38,009 nt of DNA from a virus: positions 1 through 38,009 of IMG/VR virus record IMGVR_UViG_3300043409_001203; one strand, 5' to 3'. This document shows positions 2,229 through 37,101 of this stretch, piece after piece. Every line of letters begins with the position of its first letter. Positions within the stretch are counted from its first letter, which is position 1. The notes beneath the pieces are model-generated. The model was not told the DNA's origin. It searched no databases and worked only from the letters and a program-made list of their open reading frames with translations. The translations under genes and the position numbers were made by a program.

Positions 2229-2505
2229 ACACCTTAATTATATCTTTTAAGTTTTCAGTCAACAGTATTGAAAAATTTTCAGCGATAATCTCTTCGACAG
2301 TTGGATCAACAATATACTGCCTCATTCCAGTTCTATACCAAAAAACATGAAATAATTCGTGACTGAAATCTTGAAACTGTGTCTGCGATCTTGGGTCAAG
2401 AGTGATTAGATTTTTAACCGGATCATATAGTGCTACAGCATTTAGGCTATCATCTATTTTTTTTATAGAAATTTTCGTTTTTAATCCAAATACATATATG
2501 TTCAT
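2161..2505 (-). CDS. Small HExxH metallopeptidase (ImmA/IrrE-like)
   Basis: The 114-residue protein contains DFSHELFHVFW with the zinc motif HELFH at residues 49-53 and a downstream EEIIAEN (71-77) that can provide the third ligand. This is the layout of short phage ImmA/IrrE-type peptidases, some of which cleave repressors. Residues 97-114 are a lysine/arginine-rich tail that overlaps the HNH gene and is probably not native. The start ATG 2505 overlaps the stop of the metallophosphoesterase gene (ATGA), so the two are translationally coupled. No substrate is identifiable; repressor cleavage is a family-based guess. Confidence 0.7.
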   Translation of the reverse strand: MNIYVFGLKTKISIKKIDDSLNAVALYDPVKNLITLDPRSQTQFQDFSHELFHVFWYRTGMRQYIVDPTVEEIIAENFSILLTENLKDIIKVYEKLNKKKPRNTNRKRNRTKVP

Positions 2506-3587
2506 AAGTTCCCATCAAATACGTGACCGTTAAAACTCATGAGTCCATTATTGATTTTAGGTTTATAAAAGTTGTATGAGCCGTCAGGAAAAAACTCAAA
2601 CACTCCGAAAGCGTGAACCCAGTTATTAGGCTTCCCTTTTAAGAACTTTGCATCTAAGCGGCTCAATGTCCCTAGGGCTGAGGCTTCAATATTGCCTTCC
2701 ATAGAGGTCTCGTTATGCTGTTGATCGTCATGTACGTGCCCGTAATAAATGTTTGATTTAAAAGTAGACAAATGTTTTTTAGCATGGCCGTTGCCTGCAT
2801 AAATGCCATGCGTAAAATGAGCTTTGCCGATTCTGACTAGATGATTTACTTCGAATAAGTCATAACCAAACTTATCTAGGTTTAAAAGTTTCTTTAAATT
2901 AATATCAAGGTCTAAGTCAGCAAGACCGTCAAATAGCTCCGGCATGCGCGTAAATGCTTGATCAATCCAAGCTTCATGATTTCCCTCTAAGTAAACTCTC
3001 GTTGTCGTGTTAGGCGTTTTATCGACGATTTCCTGGAGTAGCTCACGAGCTTCTTTCATCTCTGGAATAAGTCTTCTAGGCTCTAAAGATTCACTAGGCC
3101 AGTGACTAATCCCTTCGCAGTCTACGAAGTCACCCATTATCATGTGCACGTCTGGCTTGAAGTAAGAGCAAAATTTAATAAAGCAATTCACGGCGGCAAC
3201 ATCTCGGTACTTAACATGCGTGTCAGGTTCAGCTACGAGCTTGAGTGACTTTGGGTTTCCAGCCCTGTCAAACATCTCTTTTAAATCTAAAGTGTGAACA
3301 AAGAAGCCCTGAATCTGTTCAGTCTTAGAGCATAACTTTTTGTAGTTTTTTAAAAGTGTTTCTTCTGAAGTGATTTTTTTGCTAGGTAATTTTTTTGATT
3401 CACTGACTGACTTTAAATCAGCAGCATCTAATAAGTTTTGATAAGTGTTATATTGGCTTTTCTCTAGTCGATACTTGCCGCCGACCATCGAATTTTCAAA
3501 CTGTGCGCGCGTAGGCGTGTGCCCTAATTCAGCAGCGAGTTGTTTAACGAAAGCGACTAGATCATGTGAATTTTGCTTTTCAGACAT
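2502..3587 (-). CDS. Metallophosphoesterase with N-terminal DNA-binding-like repeat
   Basis: The protein has 361 residues. Residues 8-35 (LVAFVKQLAAELGHTPTRAQFE) resemble the short helix-turn-helix called the homing-endonuclease-associated repeat. Residues 116-330 form a calcineurin-like phosphoesterase domain with every metal-binding block visible: DTH (122-124), GDFVD (152-156), GNHE (202-205), FTHG (258-261) and GHVH (283-286). Such enzymes hydrolyse phosphodiesters of DNA, RNA or nucleotides using two metal ions. The DNA-binding segment favours a nucleic acid substrate. An AGAGGT Shine-Dalgarno precedes ATG 3587. It heads a short leftward cassette with the metallopeptidase and the HNH gene. 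A role in recombination, repair or anti-defence is possible but unproven. Confidence 0.75.
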   Translation of the reverse strand: MSEKQNSHDLVAFVKQLAAELGHTPTRAQFENSMVGGKYRLEKSQYNTYQNLLDAADLKSVSESKKLPSKKITSEETLLKNYKKLCSKTEQIQGFFVHTLDLKEMFDRAGNPKSLKLVAEPDTHVKYRDVAAVNCFIKFCSYFKPDVHMIMGDFVDCEGISHWPSESLEPRRLIPEMKEARELLQEIVDKTPNTTTRVYLEGNHEAWIDQAFTRMPELFDGLADLDLDINLKKLLNLDKFGYDLFEVNHLVRIGKAHFTHGIYAGNGHAKKHLSTFKSNIYYGHVHDDQQHNETSMEGNIEASALGTLSRLDAKFLKGKPNNWVHAFGVFEFFPDGSYNFYKPKINNGLMSFNGHVFDGNL

Positions 3588-23112: not shown

Positions 23113-23676
23113 TTATTTAGCGTTTTTTAATAATTGTTTAAGATCAGTTTCGGAGAGGTCAGACAGTGGTTTAGATGTAGCGACACCATTCGAAGGGACT
23201 AAATTGCCAGGAAGTTTAAAGTCTTTTTTAAACAAGTGCGGCTTTGTCTTTGTCAGCTCTTGAATTTTTGCTTCAAGCTTTACTGTTTCAAATTCAAAAT
23301 CGTCGTTCACTTCAATGTCATCGAACGTGCAGGCTGTAAAAGCGAGTTCAGGATCAACACAACCAAGCTTTTCACTCATACTCTTGAACTGGCTTTTGAT
23401 TGTTTTAGTCGTGATGTTTCTAACGATTTGAAGGTTTTTATTCTTAAATTCGTCAGCTTGCTTTTTATTTGCCTCTGCTAGTTCTTTCCATTTTCCCTCA
23501 GCTTGCAATTTCTCTTGGCTAATCTGTTCAAGAATTGCTTCTTTCTCAGCGAGCTTTGATTGCATGCTTTTCTTTTCGTTTAGTACTTTTGCGTATGAAT
23601 CGTAACTTACTAAGTCTTTGCTTTCTGTCGCGCCACTGGCTTGATCAGGAATCCCACTGGGATTTGCGTCTGTCAT
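23113..23676 (-). CDS. Scaffolding protein
   Basis: The 187-residue protein is highly charged and helical. A central coiled coil (residues 30-75, LNEKKSMQSKLAEKEAILEQ and on through QEKLQAEGKWKELAEANKK) leads to a C-terminal part ending in SETDLKQLLKNAK. It is read directly before the major capsid gene. Its ribosome-binding site AGGAG overlaps a stem-loop (23685-23717), which might limit its production. Its job is to guide shell assembly and leave the head before DNA enters. Confidence 0.8.
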   Translation of the reverse strand: MTDANPSGIPDQASGATESKDLVSYDSYAKVLNEKKSMQSKLAEKEAILEQISQEKLQAEGKWKELAEANKKQADEFKNKNLQIVRNITTKTIKSQFKSMSEKLGCVDPELAFTACTFDDIEVNDDFEFETVKLEAKIQELTKTKPHLFKKDFKLPGNLVPSNGVATSKPLSDLSETDLKQLLKNAK

Positions 23677-23684
23677 AAATTTCT

Positions 23685-23717
23685 CCTATGTAGTGACATT
23701 TTTTCATCACTCATAGG
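23685..23717 (-). promoter_or_regulatory. Stem-loop masking the scaffold ribosome-binding site
   Basis: Arms CCTATG-t-AGTGA (23685-23696, one bulged T) and TCACT-CATAGG (23707-23717) give 11 pairs around a 10-base loop. On the minus-strand RNA the right-hand part of the stem ends in AUAGG, which is the beginning of the AGGAG ribosome-binding site of the scaffold gene (start 23676). Folding would hide it. The 92-base interval 23677-23768 otherwise holds no gene. Confidence 0.55.
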
Positions 23718-23768
23718 GATTTAGAATTTAAGACTATTTAATATAGGGATAATTAGATTGCTGTTTAG

Positions 23769-24329
23769 CTATTTGAGTTTACGAACGATCTTGTTATATA
23801 GACTTAGCTTACGTCTTAACTGTTGAGTGATTTTGTTTTCTAAAAGCGTGTTGAGCTTTTCGGATATAAAAAAGAATTTAAATCCGCGCTTTTCTAGATC
23901 GTCTTTTATCTCAACATTATCTTTGTTCTCTAAAGGTTGACCGGATTTCCCTTTGTAGGGATTACGTTGTTTCTTTATTAAAAGGACTACCGTGCTGATT
24001 GACTCATTAATTCGAAAGTAGATTGAGTCTAATAATTGACCTGACATTGATAAATTTGATCTATTTGGGTTTACTATTTTTTGATCAAAGCTATTGCCTT
24101 GCTTGATTAAAGTCTTGCGTCGATCAACCGTGCTGTCTTCTAAAGGTGGTTGAAAGTAAGCGGGATCTGTTCTGCCTCCGGCTCTTACTGCGCTTCTAAT
24201 TTGATCGGCCGCTGTTTGGCCTACGAAATCAAGAAACTCTCGATCCTTAGTTGTGCTATTAATAAACTTTAAGGCGTTGTCCCGGGCTTGACTTATTCCT
24301 GTGATCTTAACGGTTGTTTTCTTAGCCAT
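23769..24329 (-). CDS. Minor head or tail-joining protein
   Basis: The 186-residue basic protein has helical ends, a central segment (GGRTDPAYFQPPLEDSTVDRRK, then SNLSMSGQLLDSIYFRIN) and a coiled C-terminal part. The pattern SGQLLDSI with a following strand resembles HK97 gp10-type joining proteins. It is read between another head-assembly gene (sharing base 24329) and the scaffold. The assignment is tentative. Confidence 0.5.
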   Translation of the reverse strand: MAKKTTVKITGISQARDNALKFINSTTKDREFLDFVGQTAADQIRSAVRAGGRTDPAYFQPPLEDSTVDRRKTLIKQGNSFDQKIVNPNRSNLSMSGQLLDSIYFRINESISTVVLLIKKQRNPYKGKSGQPLENKDNVEIKDDLEKRGFKFFFISEKLNTLLENKITQQLRRKLSLYNKIVRKLK

Positions 24330-32391: not shown

Positions 32392-32459
32392 TCCCCACCC
32401 CACAAGACACTAAATACAAACACCATAAATGCGACTGCTAATAATAAATCTGTGATCAT
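32388..32459 (-). CDS. 23-aa membrane micropeptide
   Basis: This ORF starts at ATG 32459 in an ATGA overlap with the pentapeptide gene and stops in an ATGA overlap with the next membrane peptide. It is mostly hydrophobic (LLLAVAFMVFVFSVLW, residues 5-20) and ends in GGE. Two successive ATGA junctions in a row make chance less likely and suggest that ribosomes pass from one to the next. It may be a regulator of the larger membrane peptide. Confidence 0.45.
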   Translation of the reverse strand: MITDLLLAVAFMVFVFSVLWGGE

Positions 32460-33007
32460 TTTACATCCTTGCGATAATATCGAATCATTTCAGTTATTAT
32501 TTTCTTGTTAAATTTAAATTCGTTTTCATTCCACTCGCTTGTGCAATCTTTTAATCGAAACGCTTTCACTTCATCAAATGTCATTTTCTTACATCCCCAA
32601 ATCACATAGTCGTCGAATATTGTAATGAAAAATCTTGTATTCACAACTTGCAAAGGAGTGAATTTAAAACCTATTGCGTAACTAAGGTTAGCGAAACTAA
32701 GGTCAGCGTAACTAAGGTTAGCGTAACGAAGGTTAGCGTAACTAAGGTTAGCGTAACTAAGGTTAGCGAAACTAAGGTTAGCGAAACTAAGGTTAGCGTA
32801 ACGAAGGTTAGCGTAACTAAGGTTAGCGTAACGAAGGTTAGCGTAACTAAGGTTAGCGTAACGAAGGTCAGCGTAACTAAGGTTAGCGTAACGAAGGTCA
32901 GCGTTGTAAAAACTCTCCCCCTGTTTTGCAACGAGTCTCTCACCTTTTGATTGATCCAAAAGCCACATTTTATGTTGTTCTAATCTAGTTTTTAATTCTT
33001 CATTCAT
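32456..33007 (-). CDS. Pentapeptide repeat protein
   Basis: In this 183-residue protein, residues 1-34 are a helical start (EELKTRLEQHKMWLL). Residues 36-110 consist of fifteen uninterrupted A(D/N)L(S/R)(Y/F) units, which fold into a square right-handed beta helix of nearly four turns. The C-terminal 70 residues are unrelated and charged. Some members imitate DNA and bind gyrase; others have unknown roles. The repeat is almost pure at DNA level. AAAGG precedes ATG 33007. It is the first gene downstream of the structured RNA region. Confidence 0.85.
   Translation of the reverse strand: MNEELKTRLEQHKMWLLDQSKGERLVAKQGESFYNADLRYANLSYADLRYANLSYANLRYANLSYANLRYANLSFANLSFANLSYANLSYANLRYANLSYADLSFANLSYAIGFKFTPLQVVNTRFFITIFDDYVIWGCKKMTFDEVKAFRLKDCTSEWNENEFKFNKKIITEMIRYYRKDVK
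32676..32905. repeat. 15-bp tandem repeat, about 15 copies
   Basis: Copies of GCG(T/A)AAC(T/G)AAGGT(T/C)A follow one another without spacers inside the pentapeptide gene. Differences are limited to a few positions, and alternate units tend to alternate ACTAA with ACGAA. Because 15 is divisible by 3, all six frames stay open here, which explains the opposite-strand and shifted ORFs. The array is likely to change copy number by slippage without breaking the reading frame. Confidence 0.9.
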
Positions 33008-33014
33008 AAATACC

Positions 33015-33434
33015 TTTCGTTAAACTCAAGGAAGTGATTCAGCAAAGCCACTCATTCGTGATGAGCTGATATAAGGACCACGACGTCCGGACTGAATCAC
33101 TTCATTCAATCTACAAACTCAAGTGAATGAACCAAGGCCATGCGCGACTATGGCTCCCTATTTATTCAGCATCACTCTCTTGCTGCCCATCGGCCTCTAG
33201 ACTGGCTAGAATTTGATTAAAGCAATTAAGCTACTTCTGGTTATTTCAGGACTTGGGTCAATCAATGCGTGTCTCCAGTAGTTCACTTTTGTACGTTTGC
33301 GTTCCGACTAACTACAGCTTCCACGCCTCTTGATTCATTCACTTCAGTGCTCGTTTCGACCACATGACGAGCGGCATGTTATCAAATTAATTTAAATTAA
33401 GTTTGGTCTAATAATCCGAACCACTCGGATTAAA
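33015..33434 (-). ncRNA. Large structured RNA candidate (about 400 nt)
   Basis: No credible ORF lies here on either strand, yet the minus-strand RNA can form nested helices. A 16-bp long-range pairing joins 33344-33329 to 33136-33121 (15 Watson-Crick, one G-U). Inside it are 33326-33322/33271-33267, 33315-33310/33283-33278, an 8-bp pairing 33265-33258/33220-33213, and hairpins at 33210-33196, 33185-33167 and 33154-33137. A second domain is closed by a perfect 12-bp stem (33103-33092/33042-33031) that holds two hairpins (33088-33075, 33065-33051). Further stems are at 33372-33349 and 33431-33413. Both long pairings with a mismatch on the plus strand have G-U on the minus strand. It may be an independent RNA or a giant leader of the pentapeptide gene. 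A 14-bp perfect A/T palindrome (33387-33400) may mark its promoter region. Confidence 0.6.
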
Positions 33435-34241
33435 TTAAAGTCCTAATTTTGCAGCTTTAGTTTTTACTAAGGCTCTTAGTTGAGGCATCGTCAAAGACAA
33501 TGAGCCACCCGGATCTTGCTTGTCCCCAAGTTTGCCAGCTTCTTTTCTTAATTCGTCATGGCCTGCAATATAATCAAGATCAAACTCTTTATTATTCTTC
33601 TTGAACCATAAAATTAAATTGATCAAAGATGCTTCTTGCTTTTCGGTATACTTTTCGTAAGTACCAGCAACGATGTAGCCTTGCGCTGTTGTCACTGTGC
33701 GAGTGTCAGACTTTGGAACCGATGAAGGTGGGTTGCGTCCCCATGAGCACATCTCTAAACCAAAGTTGACATCAGAAACACTTGAGCGACCTTTCCATTT
33801 AGAAACGCCTGAGTGATAACCCCATGTTCTAAACATATCGAAATTTTCAGGAACATAAATAATCCCGTCTTCGTCCATTGCCGCACAGCCAAAACCTTGC
33901 GATGCCAAGTAGTTGATAATACCGCGAGCTGATGACGCTTTCTTGCCACTTACGGCATAATGAACTGTCATGCCTTTGAACTTGCCTGAAGGCGTCTTGT
34001 AGTCACCACGGTCTTTAAACTTAACACCCTTCACAACAACGACTGTCGGTTCTACAATCCCGTCTACGTGCACTGTGGGCTCAACCGGAGGCGTTAAATC
34101 ATCCGGGATAGCTTCGATCTTTAATTCGAAAGCTTCTGATGCTGCGTCTGATTTTTTACCCCATTGACCGTCCACAACTAATCCCGCGCCCTTTGCATTC
34201 ATAGCTTCTTGTGCTTTTTTTACTAATGTTTCAATTTTCAT
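33435..34241 (-). CDS. N-acetylmuramoyl-L-alanine amidase endolysin
   Basis: The 268-residue protein starts with a wall-binding-like segment (GLVVDGQWGKKSDAASEAF, residues 20-38). A linker rich in Pro and Val precedes a zinc amidase (PGRP/amidase_2) domain from about residue 85. Likely zinc ligands are His94 (MTVHYAV), His228 (AGHDELR) and Asp243 (QDPGG). YHSGVSKWKG (142-151) and NFGLEM are typical of the fold. It cuts the bond between muramic acid and the first alanine of the peptide. No signal peptide is present, so a holin must release it. Its ATG overlaps the stop of a 35-aa ORF (ATGA). Confidence 0.85.
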   Translation of the reverse strand: MKIETLVKKAQEAMNAKGAGLVVDGQWGKKSDAASEAFELKIEAIPDDLTPPVEPTVHVDGIVEPTVVVVKGVKFKDRGDYKTPSGKFKGMTVHYAVSGKKASSARGIINYLASQGFGCAAMDEDGIIYVPENFDMFRTWGYHSGVSKWKGRSSVSDVNFGLEMCSWGRNPPSSVPKSDTRTVTTAQGYIVAGTYEKYTEKQEASLINLILWFKKNNKEFDLDYIAGHDELRKEAGKLGDKQDPGGSLSLTMPQLRALVKTKAAKLGL

Positions 34242-34631: not shown

Positions 34632-35210
34632 TTATGTGTTTTCATATCCAAGATCAGTCCAATATTTTTCTGATCTTTTAATTTGTTTTTTCCATTCATT
34701 AACTTTTTTCATTATTTTTTCGTTAGCTAATTCTTCAGTTGTGTCTGGAGTTATATTTGGATTAAACCAAGCTGCGTTTAATGCTTTTTTAACAAAGCCG
34801 CCTTTAAGTGAACTATCCCATCTAGGCATATTTGAGTTATTCGTTTTTCCAGTCTCACAGTCGCAACGAATTAAGTATTGAAAACCGTCTGGCTCTGTAT
34901 GTTCGAATTTTACTATCCCAGTATCGAAACAATAGTCGCATCCAATTTTCGTGTACTGAGCTTCAATTACTTGATTGTAATAATTATTTTTCTTTTTCCA
35001 TGCTGTCGCAGCATCAAAAAAATCACTAGGCGTAGGGGCGTATTTAAAATTATCAATGATTGTATTTATAATTTCGTCGATCCCATCTTTAGGAATATCT
35101 TTTAGAAAATTATAAATTCTTTCAATTTTAGTTTTTGATTTCATTGATGGGAAACATTCAACCAATGTCTCAAATCTACTTAAAAAATATTGTTGATGTC
35201 TCATCTCCAT
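34632..35210 (-). CDS. Helicase-loader-like protein with zinc motif
   Basis: The 192-residue protein has an N-terminal helical part (FLSRFETLVECFPSMKSKTKIERIYNFLKDIPKDGIDEIINTIIDNFKYAPTPSDFF) like the phage replicative helicase loader/inhibitor family (G39P-like). A zinc-ribbon-like part follows (CDYCFDTG and RCDCETG, residues 90-125). ATG 35210 overlaps the initiator stop (TAATG). It probably brings the host helicase to the origin bound by the initiator encoded just upstream. Confidence 0.65.
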   Translation of the reverse strand: MEMRHQQYFLSRFETLVECFPSMKSKTKIERIYNFLKDIPKDGIDEIINTIIDNFKYAPTPSDFFDAATAWKKKNNYYNQVIEAQYTKIGCDYCFDTGIVKFEHTEPDGFQYLIRCDCETGKTNNSNMPRWDSSLKGGFVKKALNAAWFNPNITPDTTEELANEKIMKKVNEWKKQIKRSEKYWTDLGYENT

Positions 35211-36004
35211 TATGACCAACCCATCATACTCATAAGCTCGTCAACACTAGATGCTTTCGCTTTGTTAGCTGGTATTGTTTGTTGATATTTAGGCCAGGAG
35301 TTATCTAACCAAGTTGACACGAAACCAAGCCATCCACGCTTAGTTTTATTATTCTTTTTCGGATTACGATCGAGCCAATTTTGTATCTTATAAAATTCAC
35401 GCTTTATAAAATCAGAGTCACCATACAACTCAAAAAATATAAGTTTATTTTTTTCATCAAGTATGTCCACGAGCTGTTTAGGTGATTCGATTTTGATTGT
35501 TTGTTTTTTTGATACTGTACCCACTTCATTTTTTGAAGTGGGTACAATATTATTAATTAAAGAGTTAGTATTTAGAGAAGGAGGAAGAGTAAGAGAAAGA
35601 GTAAGAGGGTTCGAGCCGATTTCTTCCGATAAGCGGTCGCTTTCTTCCGCTTTTGGTCTTCCACCCTTTTTACCAGCTTTTTGCCTTTGAATTAACCAAC
35701 CGAACTGTTCATTACTGCCAATAACATATACGCCTTGCTGTTCTTTAAGGCATAAATCTTCAGTTGACTGATAAGTCTTGATTTCTGCCAATCCAACATC
35801 AATTACCTTATCTTCCGCTTGTCTTCGTTTCCATTCGTTTAACGGAATTAAACGGTCGCTTTCTAGATTAAGATAAAATTTCTGTGCAAGGATAAAAGCA
35901 TCTACCACAGCGCCTAAAGCTGCGTGTCTATTTCCCATTGATATAATTAAATTTTGATAACGACCGTCTGTGAATAGAGAGTCTTCTAAATTGATTCGCG
36001 CCAA
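35210..36004 (-). CDS. Replication initiator protein (O-like)
   Basis: In this 264-residue protein, the N-terminal part (INLEDSLFTDGRYQNLIISMGNRHAALGAVVDAFILAQKF) belongs to a phage replication initiator type. A middle linker with KKGGRPKAEESD follows, then a Ser/Leu/Asn-rich region, and a C-terminal part (ELYGDSDFIKREFYKIQNWLDRNPKKN, then RGWLGFVSTWLDNSWPKY) typical of DnaT/O-type helicase-interacting domains. The start is TTG 36004, with AAGGGG 5-6 bases upstream and conserved residues close behind it. A long stem-loop and purine-rich repeats inside the gene may mark the origin, as for lambda O. Confidence 0.7.
   Translation of the reverse strand: MARINLEDSLFTDGRYQNLIISMGNRHAALGAVVDAFILAQKFYLNLESDRLIPLNEWKRRQAEDKVIDVGLAEIKTYQSTEDLCLKEQQGVYVIGSNEQFGWLIQRQKAGKKGGRPKAEESDRLSEEIGSNPLTLSLTLPPSLNTNSLINNIVPTSKNEVGTVSKKQTIKIESPKQLVDILDEKNKLIFFELYGDSDFIKREFYKIQNWLDRNPKKNNKTKRGWLGFVSTWLDNSWPKYQQTIPANKAKASSVDELMSMMGWS
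35516..35611. other. Candidate replication origin inside the initiator gene
   Basis: A perfect 13-bp hairpin, TGTACCCACTTCA (35516-35528) and TGAAGTGGGTACA (35534-35546), with a 5-base T loop, is followed by an A/T-only tract (35547-35560) and a purine-rich repeat with AAGAGTAAGAGAAAGAGTAAG (35585-35605 region). Just beyond lie repeated TTCTTCCG units (35631 and 35643 areas). CGGTCGCTTTCT occurs twice in the gene (35633-35644, 35852-35863). Structure, easy melting and location within the initiator gene fit an origin. Confidence 0.45.
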
Positions 36005-36174
36005 GCGTTCCCCTTAACGCCAAGCGATTATGGGGATCTTAGGATCGGTTTAGATATTTAATAAGAAGACACAAATTGGAGGTGGCGGAGGGACTTGCCC
36101 TGGCACCCTATGTCTCATTACTAAACACCCAAACCGACCTAGATCGGCTTGTAAAGCTTGGCAGTAATTACAAG
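36005..36174. promoter_or_regulatory. att region with direct and inverted repeats
   Basis: This 170-base interval between the integrase stop and the replication initiator holds no gene. It contains CGCCAAGCG twice (35999-36007, 36018-36026). It also has a near-palindrome around CCGACCTAGATCGG (36134-36147), whose left part is inverted relative to AGGATCGGTTT (36041-36051). CTTGTAA/TTACAAG (36148-36154, 36168-36174) directly follows the integrase stop. These may be arm-type or excisionase sites, or the last could be a terminator stem without a U-run. Confidence 0.5.
36077..36097 (-). other. attP core candidate: 3' end of a tRNA (Cys-like)
   Basis: Read on the minus strand from 36097, the bases divide as CAAGT (end of a T loop), CCCTC (T-stem), CGCCACC (acceptor), T73 and CCA. 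That is exactly the 3' end of a tRNA. U73 with encoded CCA and an acceptor beginning GGTGGCG on the other strand suggests tRNA-Cys. The rest of the tRNA is absent, and the sequence to the 5' side diverges. Phage integrases commonly carry such an end to rebuild the host tRNA gene. It lies 78 bases beyond the integrase stop. Confidence 0.65.
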
Positions 36175-37101
36175 TTAACAGGACTTTATATTATTAAATT
36201 TTTGAATCAAGTCTTTTTTATTTAAATGCAGATAATTTAAAGTTGTTTTTATATCGCTATGTCCCATTACATCTCTTATCTCAAACGCTCCAAAACCCAT
36301 TTCAATCAATCTTGCAGGCAGGCTATGTCTTATGCCATATACTGTTAAATCGTTAAACCCTAAGCGTCTTAGCCATTTTCTAGCGTAATGAGAAAGTCGG
36401 TCTGTCTTTAAATCCTTATCGCTTAAATAAAAAACTTTATTTCCTTTAAAAGGCAACGAATGGAGTAAGATATCAAGCTCTTCATATATGGGAAATTTTC
36501 TAGCAATGTGTGAATTTTTTCCGCATCTAAAAGTTATCTCTTTTGACTCATAATCAATGTCTGTCCAATTTAAGTTTATTAATTCTGTTGGTCTACAACC
36601 TGTTAACCATAGAAATTTAAAACATCCTGTCATATGGTCACCTATGGAATTTATAAAACTTTCGTATTGAAATTGTGTCCAACTTTTTCTGCGATTAATT
36701 TCAAATTTTAAAGGTCTCATGCCTACGAATGGTGATTTATAAACATAGTTCCAATGAATACACTTATTAAAAAAATGTTTAAAGGTTGATAGTCTTTTTC
36801 TAACACTTTGGGGACTCATTCTTTTTAGTAAGACATTTTGGAAAGCATCAATGTGTTCAACATTTATTTCGTGAATATATTTTAGTTTGAATTGATCAAG
36901 ATGATCTAAGAATATTGGGAAATATTTTCTCTCTAACCTTTGAGAGGGCACACTTTTAAAGGCCGTACAATCAGTTAAGTATTTTTCGACGGCCTTATTT
37001 ATTTCAATTTTTTTCAGAGCAGAAAATCCATTTAATAGGTCCAGGTGTAATTCTTCAACTACTCCGGTTTCAGTGTCCTTAGTGCATAATACTTTTGCCA
37101 T
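36175..37101 (-). CDS. Tyrosine integrase
   Basis: The 308-residue tyrosine recombinase has a core-binding domain (about 35-125) and a catalytic domain with Arg170 (LTGCRPTEL), Lys195 in the beta-hairpin (CGKNSHIARKF), Arg258 (VYGIRHS), His281 (VMGHSD) and the nucleophile Tyr290 (TTLNYLH). The usual first His of box II is replaced by Tyr255, a tolerated change in this family. It joins attP to the host chromosome at a tRNA end located just downstream. A hairpin over its ribosome-binding site may control translation. It lies inside the leftward early operon, not alone. Confidence 0.9.
   Translation of the reverse strand: MAKVLCTKDTETGVVEELHLDLLNGFSALKKIEINKAVEKYLTDCTAFKSVPSQRLERKYFPIFLDHLDQFKLKYIHEINVEHIDAFQNVLLKRMSPQSVRKRLSTFKHFFNKCIHWNYVYKSPFVGMRPLKFEINRRKSWTQFQYESFINSIGDHMTGCFKFLWLTGCRPTELINLNWTDIDYESKEITFRCGKNSHIARKFPIYEELDILLHSLPFKGNKVFYLSDKDLKTDRLSHYARKWLRRLGFNDLTVYGIRHSLPARLIEMGFGAFEIRDVMGHSDIKTTLNYLHLNKKDLIQKFNNIKSC

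Follow-up and report, generated by a model that had tools for sequence, protein, structure and literature searches.

The gap between the endolysin gene and the pentapeptide-repeat protein gene of this uncultured phage contains an interval of ~370 bases for which, on the evidence of one sequence, an elaborate RNA fold is very probable. By computation, the interval is non-coding, has a stable fold on the minus strand with stems beyond chance expectation, and is absent from the related phages examined. Its description as a structured, minus-strand, non-coding element, modelled from a single sequence, is well supported. With regard to its role, we tentatively propose that the ~370-nt minus-strand RNA is an untranslated, intercistronic leader of the pentapeptide gene, that it is borne on a cassette, and that its stems protect the mRNA or serve RNase III.

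Genomic setting of the element

The window, i.e. the whole stretch of DNA that was analysed, comprises the 38,009 bases of a virus record, and the genes surrounding the element are on its minus strand (Table 1). Apart from the gap between the endolysin and the pentapeptide gene (33008-33434, 427 nt), no non-coding stretch in the window reaches 200 nt. The initial annotation had described the interval as free of protein-coding frames, and this is correct: in six frames, the two flanking genes excepted, the longest ORF touching the gap has 32 aa. The G+C content of the RNA core is 0.44 compared with 0.38 for the window, which would fit a structured RNA better than the usual A+T-rich phage spacer. 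Within the pentapeptide gene, a 15-nt tandem repeat (32676-32904, 15.3 copies, 91% matches) codes for the pentapeptide repeats.

Table 1 Features of the endolysin-pentapeptide region in the window.
Feature	Position	Strand	Basis or remark
Endolysin (Amidase_2)	33435-34241	-	Pfam PF01510, E 4.7e-6; PHROG endolysins; upstream of the RNA
Hairpin UAAUCCGA-guggu-UCGGAUUA	33412-33432	-	Fold of the minus strand; directly after the endolysin stop
A+T-rich stretch	33378-33411	-	Sequence; follows the endolysin-proximal hairpin and precedes the RNA; might harbour a promoter
Structured RNA module, 368 nt, predicted four-way junction P0-P1-D1-D2	33010-33377	-	Fold z, helix probabilities, no long ORF
P0, 5' strand AUGCC	33373-33377	-	Predicted fold
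P1 hairpin GCUCGU...ACGAGC (33372-33367/33354-33349)	33349-33372	-	Predicted, probability 0.96
Domain 1 (D1)	33117-33348	-	Predicted; closed by 3 + 16 bp with one G-G mismatch between
Domain 2 (D2)	33017-33116	-	Predicted; closing stem of ~22 bp with two mismatches; includes the perfect 12-bp stem 33103-33092/33042-33031
P0, 3' strand GGUAU, pairs with AUGCC 33377-33373	33010-33014	-	Predicted; overlaps the pentapeptide gene's ribosome-binding site
Pentapeptide-repeat protein gene	32456-33007	-	Pfam PF00805, E 3.2e-22; downstream of the RNA

On the minus strand, no promoter-like site was found upstream of the RNA, and none of the sigma-70 type in the A+T-rich stretch. The hairpin behind the endolysin gene has a terminator-like position but lacks a U-run and was not called as a terminator. 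The RNA has a feature of structured leaders in that it lies upstream of a same-strand gene with no terminator-like site predicted from the sequence between the two. A transcript through the RNA should therefore enter the pentapeptide gene unless it is processed, and this expected read-through favours a leader over a discrete trans-acting RNA and over a DNA-level repeat.

Folding of the minus strand compared with chance

The structured minus-strand RNA proposed in the initial annotation withstood the comparison with dinucleotide-shuffled controls: the minus strand of 33015-33434 (420 nt) folds with -124.4 kcal/mol and a z of -3.73, and none of 100 shuffles was as good. Similar values were obtained for 33015-33350 (z -4.03, 0/200 shuffles as good), for domain 2 alone (33015-33113; z -3.85, 0/200) and for the whole 368-nt module (z -3.29, 0/100), all on the minus strand. 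The endolysin-proximal 84 nt (33351-33434), with a z of -1.35, fold no better than shuffled sequence. When the best ungapped arm pairs were scored, the arms of the 16-bp helix in domain 1 outscored all of 150 dinucleotide shuffles and those of the 12-bp stem in domain 2 all of 300. Across the window, a z of -4 or lower was reached by 2 of 84 sampled minus-strand segments, so that fold energy alone is not decisive for the region 33008-33434. What sets this region apart is fold energy taken together with the lack of coding capacity and with stems that are long, specific and far apart.

The best z among the 84 segments (-5.2) belongs to a segment with a near-perfect 17-bp hairpin (ATATTGTACCCACTTCA/TGAAGTGGGTACAGTAT, 35512-35550) inside the ORF 35210-36004, to which no function was assigned. 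The minus strand of 23601-23936, which straddles the junction of two genes, has a z of -4.17. The strongest 200-nt fold of the window is located beside the integrase gene (36011-36180, minus strand), where GGTGCCAGGGCAAGTCCCTCCGCCACCTCCA resembles the 3' end of a tRNA or tmRNA and is flanked by 27-nt inverted repeats; this is a probable phage attachment site.

The plus strand of the element folds weaker than the minus strand (z -2.71 and -2.40), yet likewise beats shuffled sequence, as would be the case for a DNA-level inverted-repeat element or for the scar that a recent insertion or recombination event leaves behind. The similarity between the arms of domains 1 and 2 would then reflect their being termini of related repeats, with the RNA fold as a by-product. 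Direct repeats labelled D2 and D3 (81% and 80%) indeed coincide exactly with helix arms, and inverted-repeat elements are present elsewhere in related phages. However, the minus strand is consistently the better one, and G-U pairs are found where the plus strand has A-C. The initial annotation had deduced minus-strand transcription from these wobble pairs; the direction of the argument is right, but it counts only three events, one in the 16-bp helix and two where the 12-bp stem is extended outwards. Extra copies are also lacking, both in the window, where 9 loose matches to the arm motif compare with 6.2 expected by chance, and in the phage and plasmid records searched. We thus consider an origin at the DNA level unlikely.

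Predicted architecture of the RNA

The four-way junction is predicted to be almost linker-free, with its junction helices at probabilities of 0.78-1.0. Domain 1 is closed by the pairs 33348-33346/33119-33117 and by the long-range 16-bp helix 33344-33329/33136-33121, which had been located by eye and is predicted here at a probability of 1.0. Inner stems are formed by 33326-33322/33271-33267 and 33315-33310/33283-33278, together with a hairpin at 33154-33137, while the interior (33266-33155) is uncertain and its pairs are predicted at 0.4-0.8 only. The nested 8-bp helix 33265-33258/33220-33213 that had been drawn in the initial annotation is absent from both the MFE and the MEA structure. The perfect 12-bp stem of domain 2, also reported there, recurs at a probability of 0.99. 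From the ornate RNA of ~400 nt originally envisaged, the minus-strand fold and the long stems are retained, whereas the 8-bp helix and any structure beyond shuffles in the endolysin-proximal part are not confirmed.

Domain 2 holds two hairpins (33088-33075 and 33066-33050), and its stem stops ~3 nt short of GAAAGG, the pentapeptide gene's ribosome-binding site. The short helix P0 reaches a probability of 0.94 in one context, with a range of roughly 0.1-0.9 depending on the flanks. That P0 occludes this ribosome-binding site is speculative and is not claimed here; the predicted occlusion is not beyond chance, as it was equalled by 12 of 120 shuffled 5' flanks. The arms of domains 1 and 2 resemble each other (AAACTCAAG..., ...TTCACTTCA), which makes an exchange of partners between the domains conceivable.

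The loops of the two domain 2 hairpins, UCGUG and CACGA, show perfect complementarity (chance probability ~0.002 for this pair alone, picked post hoc). Either a kissing interaction or an alternative 7-bp helix could result. Such loops, the two separable domains and the nearly linker-free junction would also suit a stand-alone phage non-coding RNA that acts in trans, for example by binding to itself or to an RNA or protein of the host. It might have its own promoter in the A+T-rich stretch and be freed by processing; the A+T-rich gap and the hairpin set the RNA apart from the endolysin, and pentapeptide relatives manage without it. Against this stand the missing promoter-like site upstream and terminator-like site at the 3' end on the minus strand, and the lack of homologues, whereas trans-acting RNA classes usually recur. 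A stand-alone RNA is a possible explanation, somewhat less likely than a leader. That it is the first member of a new class of compact, ornate phage RNAs, present as a discrete molecule during lysis and either trans-acting or engaged in an RNA-only assembly, appears quite improbable.

Searches for relatives and context in related phages

No Rfam family matches the RNA at the gathering score, including group I and group II introns, tmRNA and RNase P, and at E <=10 only two chance-level matches were obtained. GOLLD, ROOL and HEARO are not among them, so that the suspected kinship to these RNAs was not borne out. ARAGORN found neither tRNA nor tmRNA in the window. The element shares with the giant classes that it is non-coding and strongly folded, lies in a phage genome and adjoins a lysis gene. 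However, it is shorter and has no tRNA neighbours, and with neither a match at gathering thresholds nor one to these families at E <=10, a divergent member of GOLLD, ROOL or another described family is highly improbable, and this reading is largely refuted.

In blastn searches of 50,697 phage and 72,556 plasmid records, no relative was found at E 0.01. Three short matches at E 10, the best of them 34 nt with E 0.3 in a structural-gene region of Staphylococcus phage DELF3, were judged to be chance. The RNA sequence was matched neither in 71 loci of pentapeptide relatives, where a weak match in L002 sits within a coding frame, nor in the TerL relatives (L073-L146) and 36 whole related viral records, in which paired matches in G034 and G035 turned out to be one virus seen twice with an 18-nt chance match. 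In 2.9 million viral contigs, four patterns were sought as exact short matches only (two 15-mers, one 16-mer and a repeated CTTGAGTTT pair). Every match to the three k-mers, and every one among the matches listed for the CTTGAGTTT pair, was spurious after re-alignment; one match, L331, was inspected by eye and rejected. A covariance model of domain 2, run on 84 sources and 40 records, finds the window alone. Likewise, no relative of the RNA was found in 398 Pseudomonadota genomes, picked around a weak integrase match (24%) as a loose guess at the host, and the genome collection gave no TerL match. Absence from these collections is not proof, since records closely similar to the window may be missing from them and since a search with a single sequence has little power for RNA.

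In one related phage (L075), the homologous endolysin gene (2066-2872) shares 13 nt with the next ORF and is followed by neither the RNA nor a pentapeptide gene; another (L076) has a 299-nt gap without excess structure (z about 0). None of the four closest pentapeptide relatives is preceded by a leader of this kind: in L001, L002 and L004 the gene overlaps its upstream neighbour and in L003 the gap is 63 nt. The pentapeptide gene thus does not need the RNA. From these contexts the RNA and the pentapeptide gene look like additions to the lysis region, and the RNA would be no fixed companion of the endolysin or of the pentapeptide gene.

Other non-coding structures were seen in related phages. 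A structured element of 250-400 nt with repeated TTATTCTGC/GCAGAATAAC arms and no Rfam match is common to several of them (L135 5940-6204, L138 5788-6111, L143 3853-4100, L144 3713-4112) and might represent an origin of replication or a region of divergent promoters. We rejected these elements as positional analogues of the RNA because those of L138, L143 and L144 are flanked by divergently oriented genes, next to a gene resembling a primase/helicase. An A+T-rich gap in L109 (3392-3710) carries long inverted repeats (CTGACAGATTGACA...; plus strand z -6.2), and L010 has a 620-nt non-coding array (2418-3037) of palindromic repeats (TTAGCCTACATTGATGTAGGCTAA and variants) with a fold z of -22 and no Rfam match.

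Discussion

A structured leader of the pentapeptide gene, which the initial annotation had offered as its alternative, is at least as likely, because no terminator was seen between the RNA and the pentapeptide gene and the stem of domain 2 ends just upstream of the ribosome-binding site. We hypothesize that the RNA and the pentapeptide gene probably arrived together as a recently acquired cassette in the lysis region, and that the RNA would be transcribed on the minus strand as the leader of the pentapeptide mRNA. It would fold into a compact four-way junction with two long helices (19 and ~22 bp), which may protect the downstream mRNA or act as RNase III processing sites. Protection or processing could then set the timing and amount of the pentapeptide protein. 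The leaderless pentapeptide relatives, an occlusion no stronger than that given by 12 of 120 shuffled flanks, and the lack of a homologue argue against a leader.

T7 early mRNAs have structured 5' leaders with long stems that are processed by RNase III. As in these leaders, long stems are predicted here just before the ribosome-binding site of a phage gene, but the RNA is much larger and is built around a four-way junction. HEARO/OMEGA RNA has a few hundred nt and multiple stems, both of which apply to our element; in contrast, its covariance model is not matched and no IscB or IsrB gene was recognised nearby among the scanned proteins.

The GOLLD and ROOL classes comprise large RNAs from phages and prophages that are often near tRNA islands and form RNA-only cages, and many GOLLD RNAs exceed 800 nt (PMC12286853). 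Like them, the element is a long non-coding, extensively folded RNA in the genome of a tailed phage, with possible kissing loops in its predicted fold. Unlike GOLLD, it has ~370 nt in a 427-nt gap and no tRNA in the window, and the covariance model of neither class is matched. The homo-oligomeric ROOL cage is held by kissing loops and A-minor contacts, for which the predicted fold of one sequence offers only a possible loop-loop pair. The element, which is similar to GOLLD and ROOL in its setting and in how extensively it folds but has none of the tested features of membership, is best called an orphan structured phage RNA. As a one-of-a-kind sequence it is for now a good candidate and not a discovery. 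To our knowledge, no function is known for elaborate phage RNAs like GOLLD and ROOL. An RNA that is smaller and simpler, and that is linked to a lysis region and to just one downstream gene, would lend itself more readily to testing.
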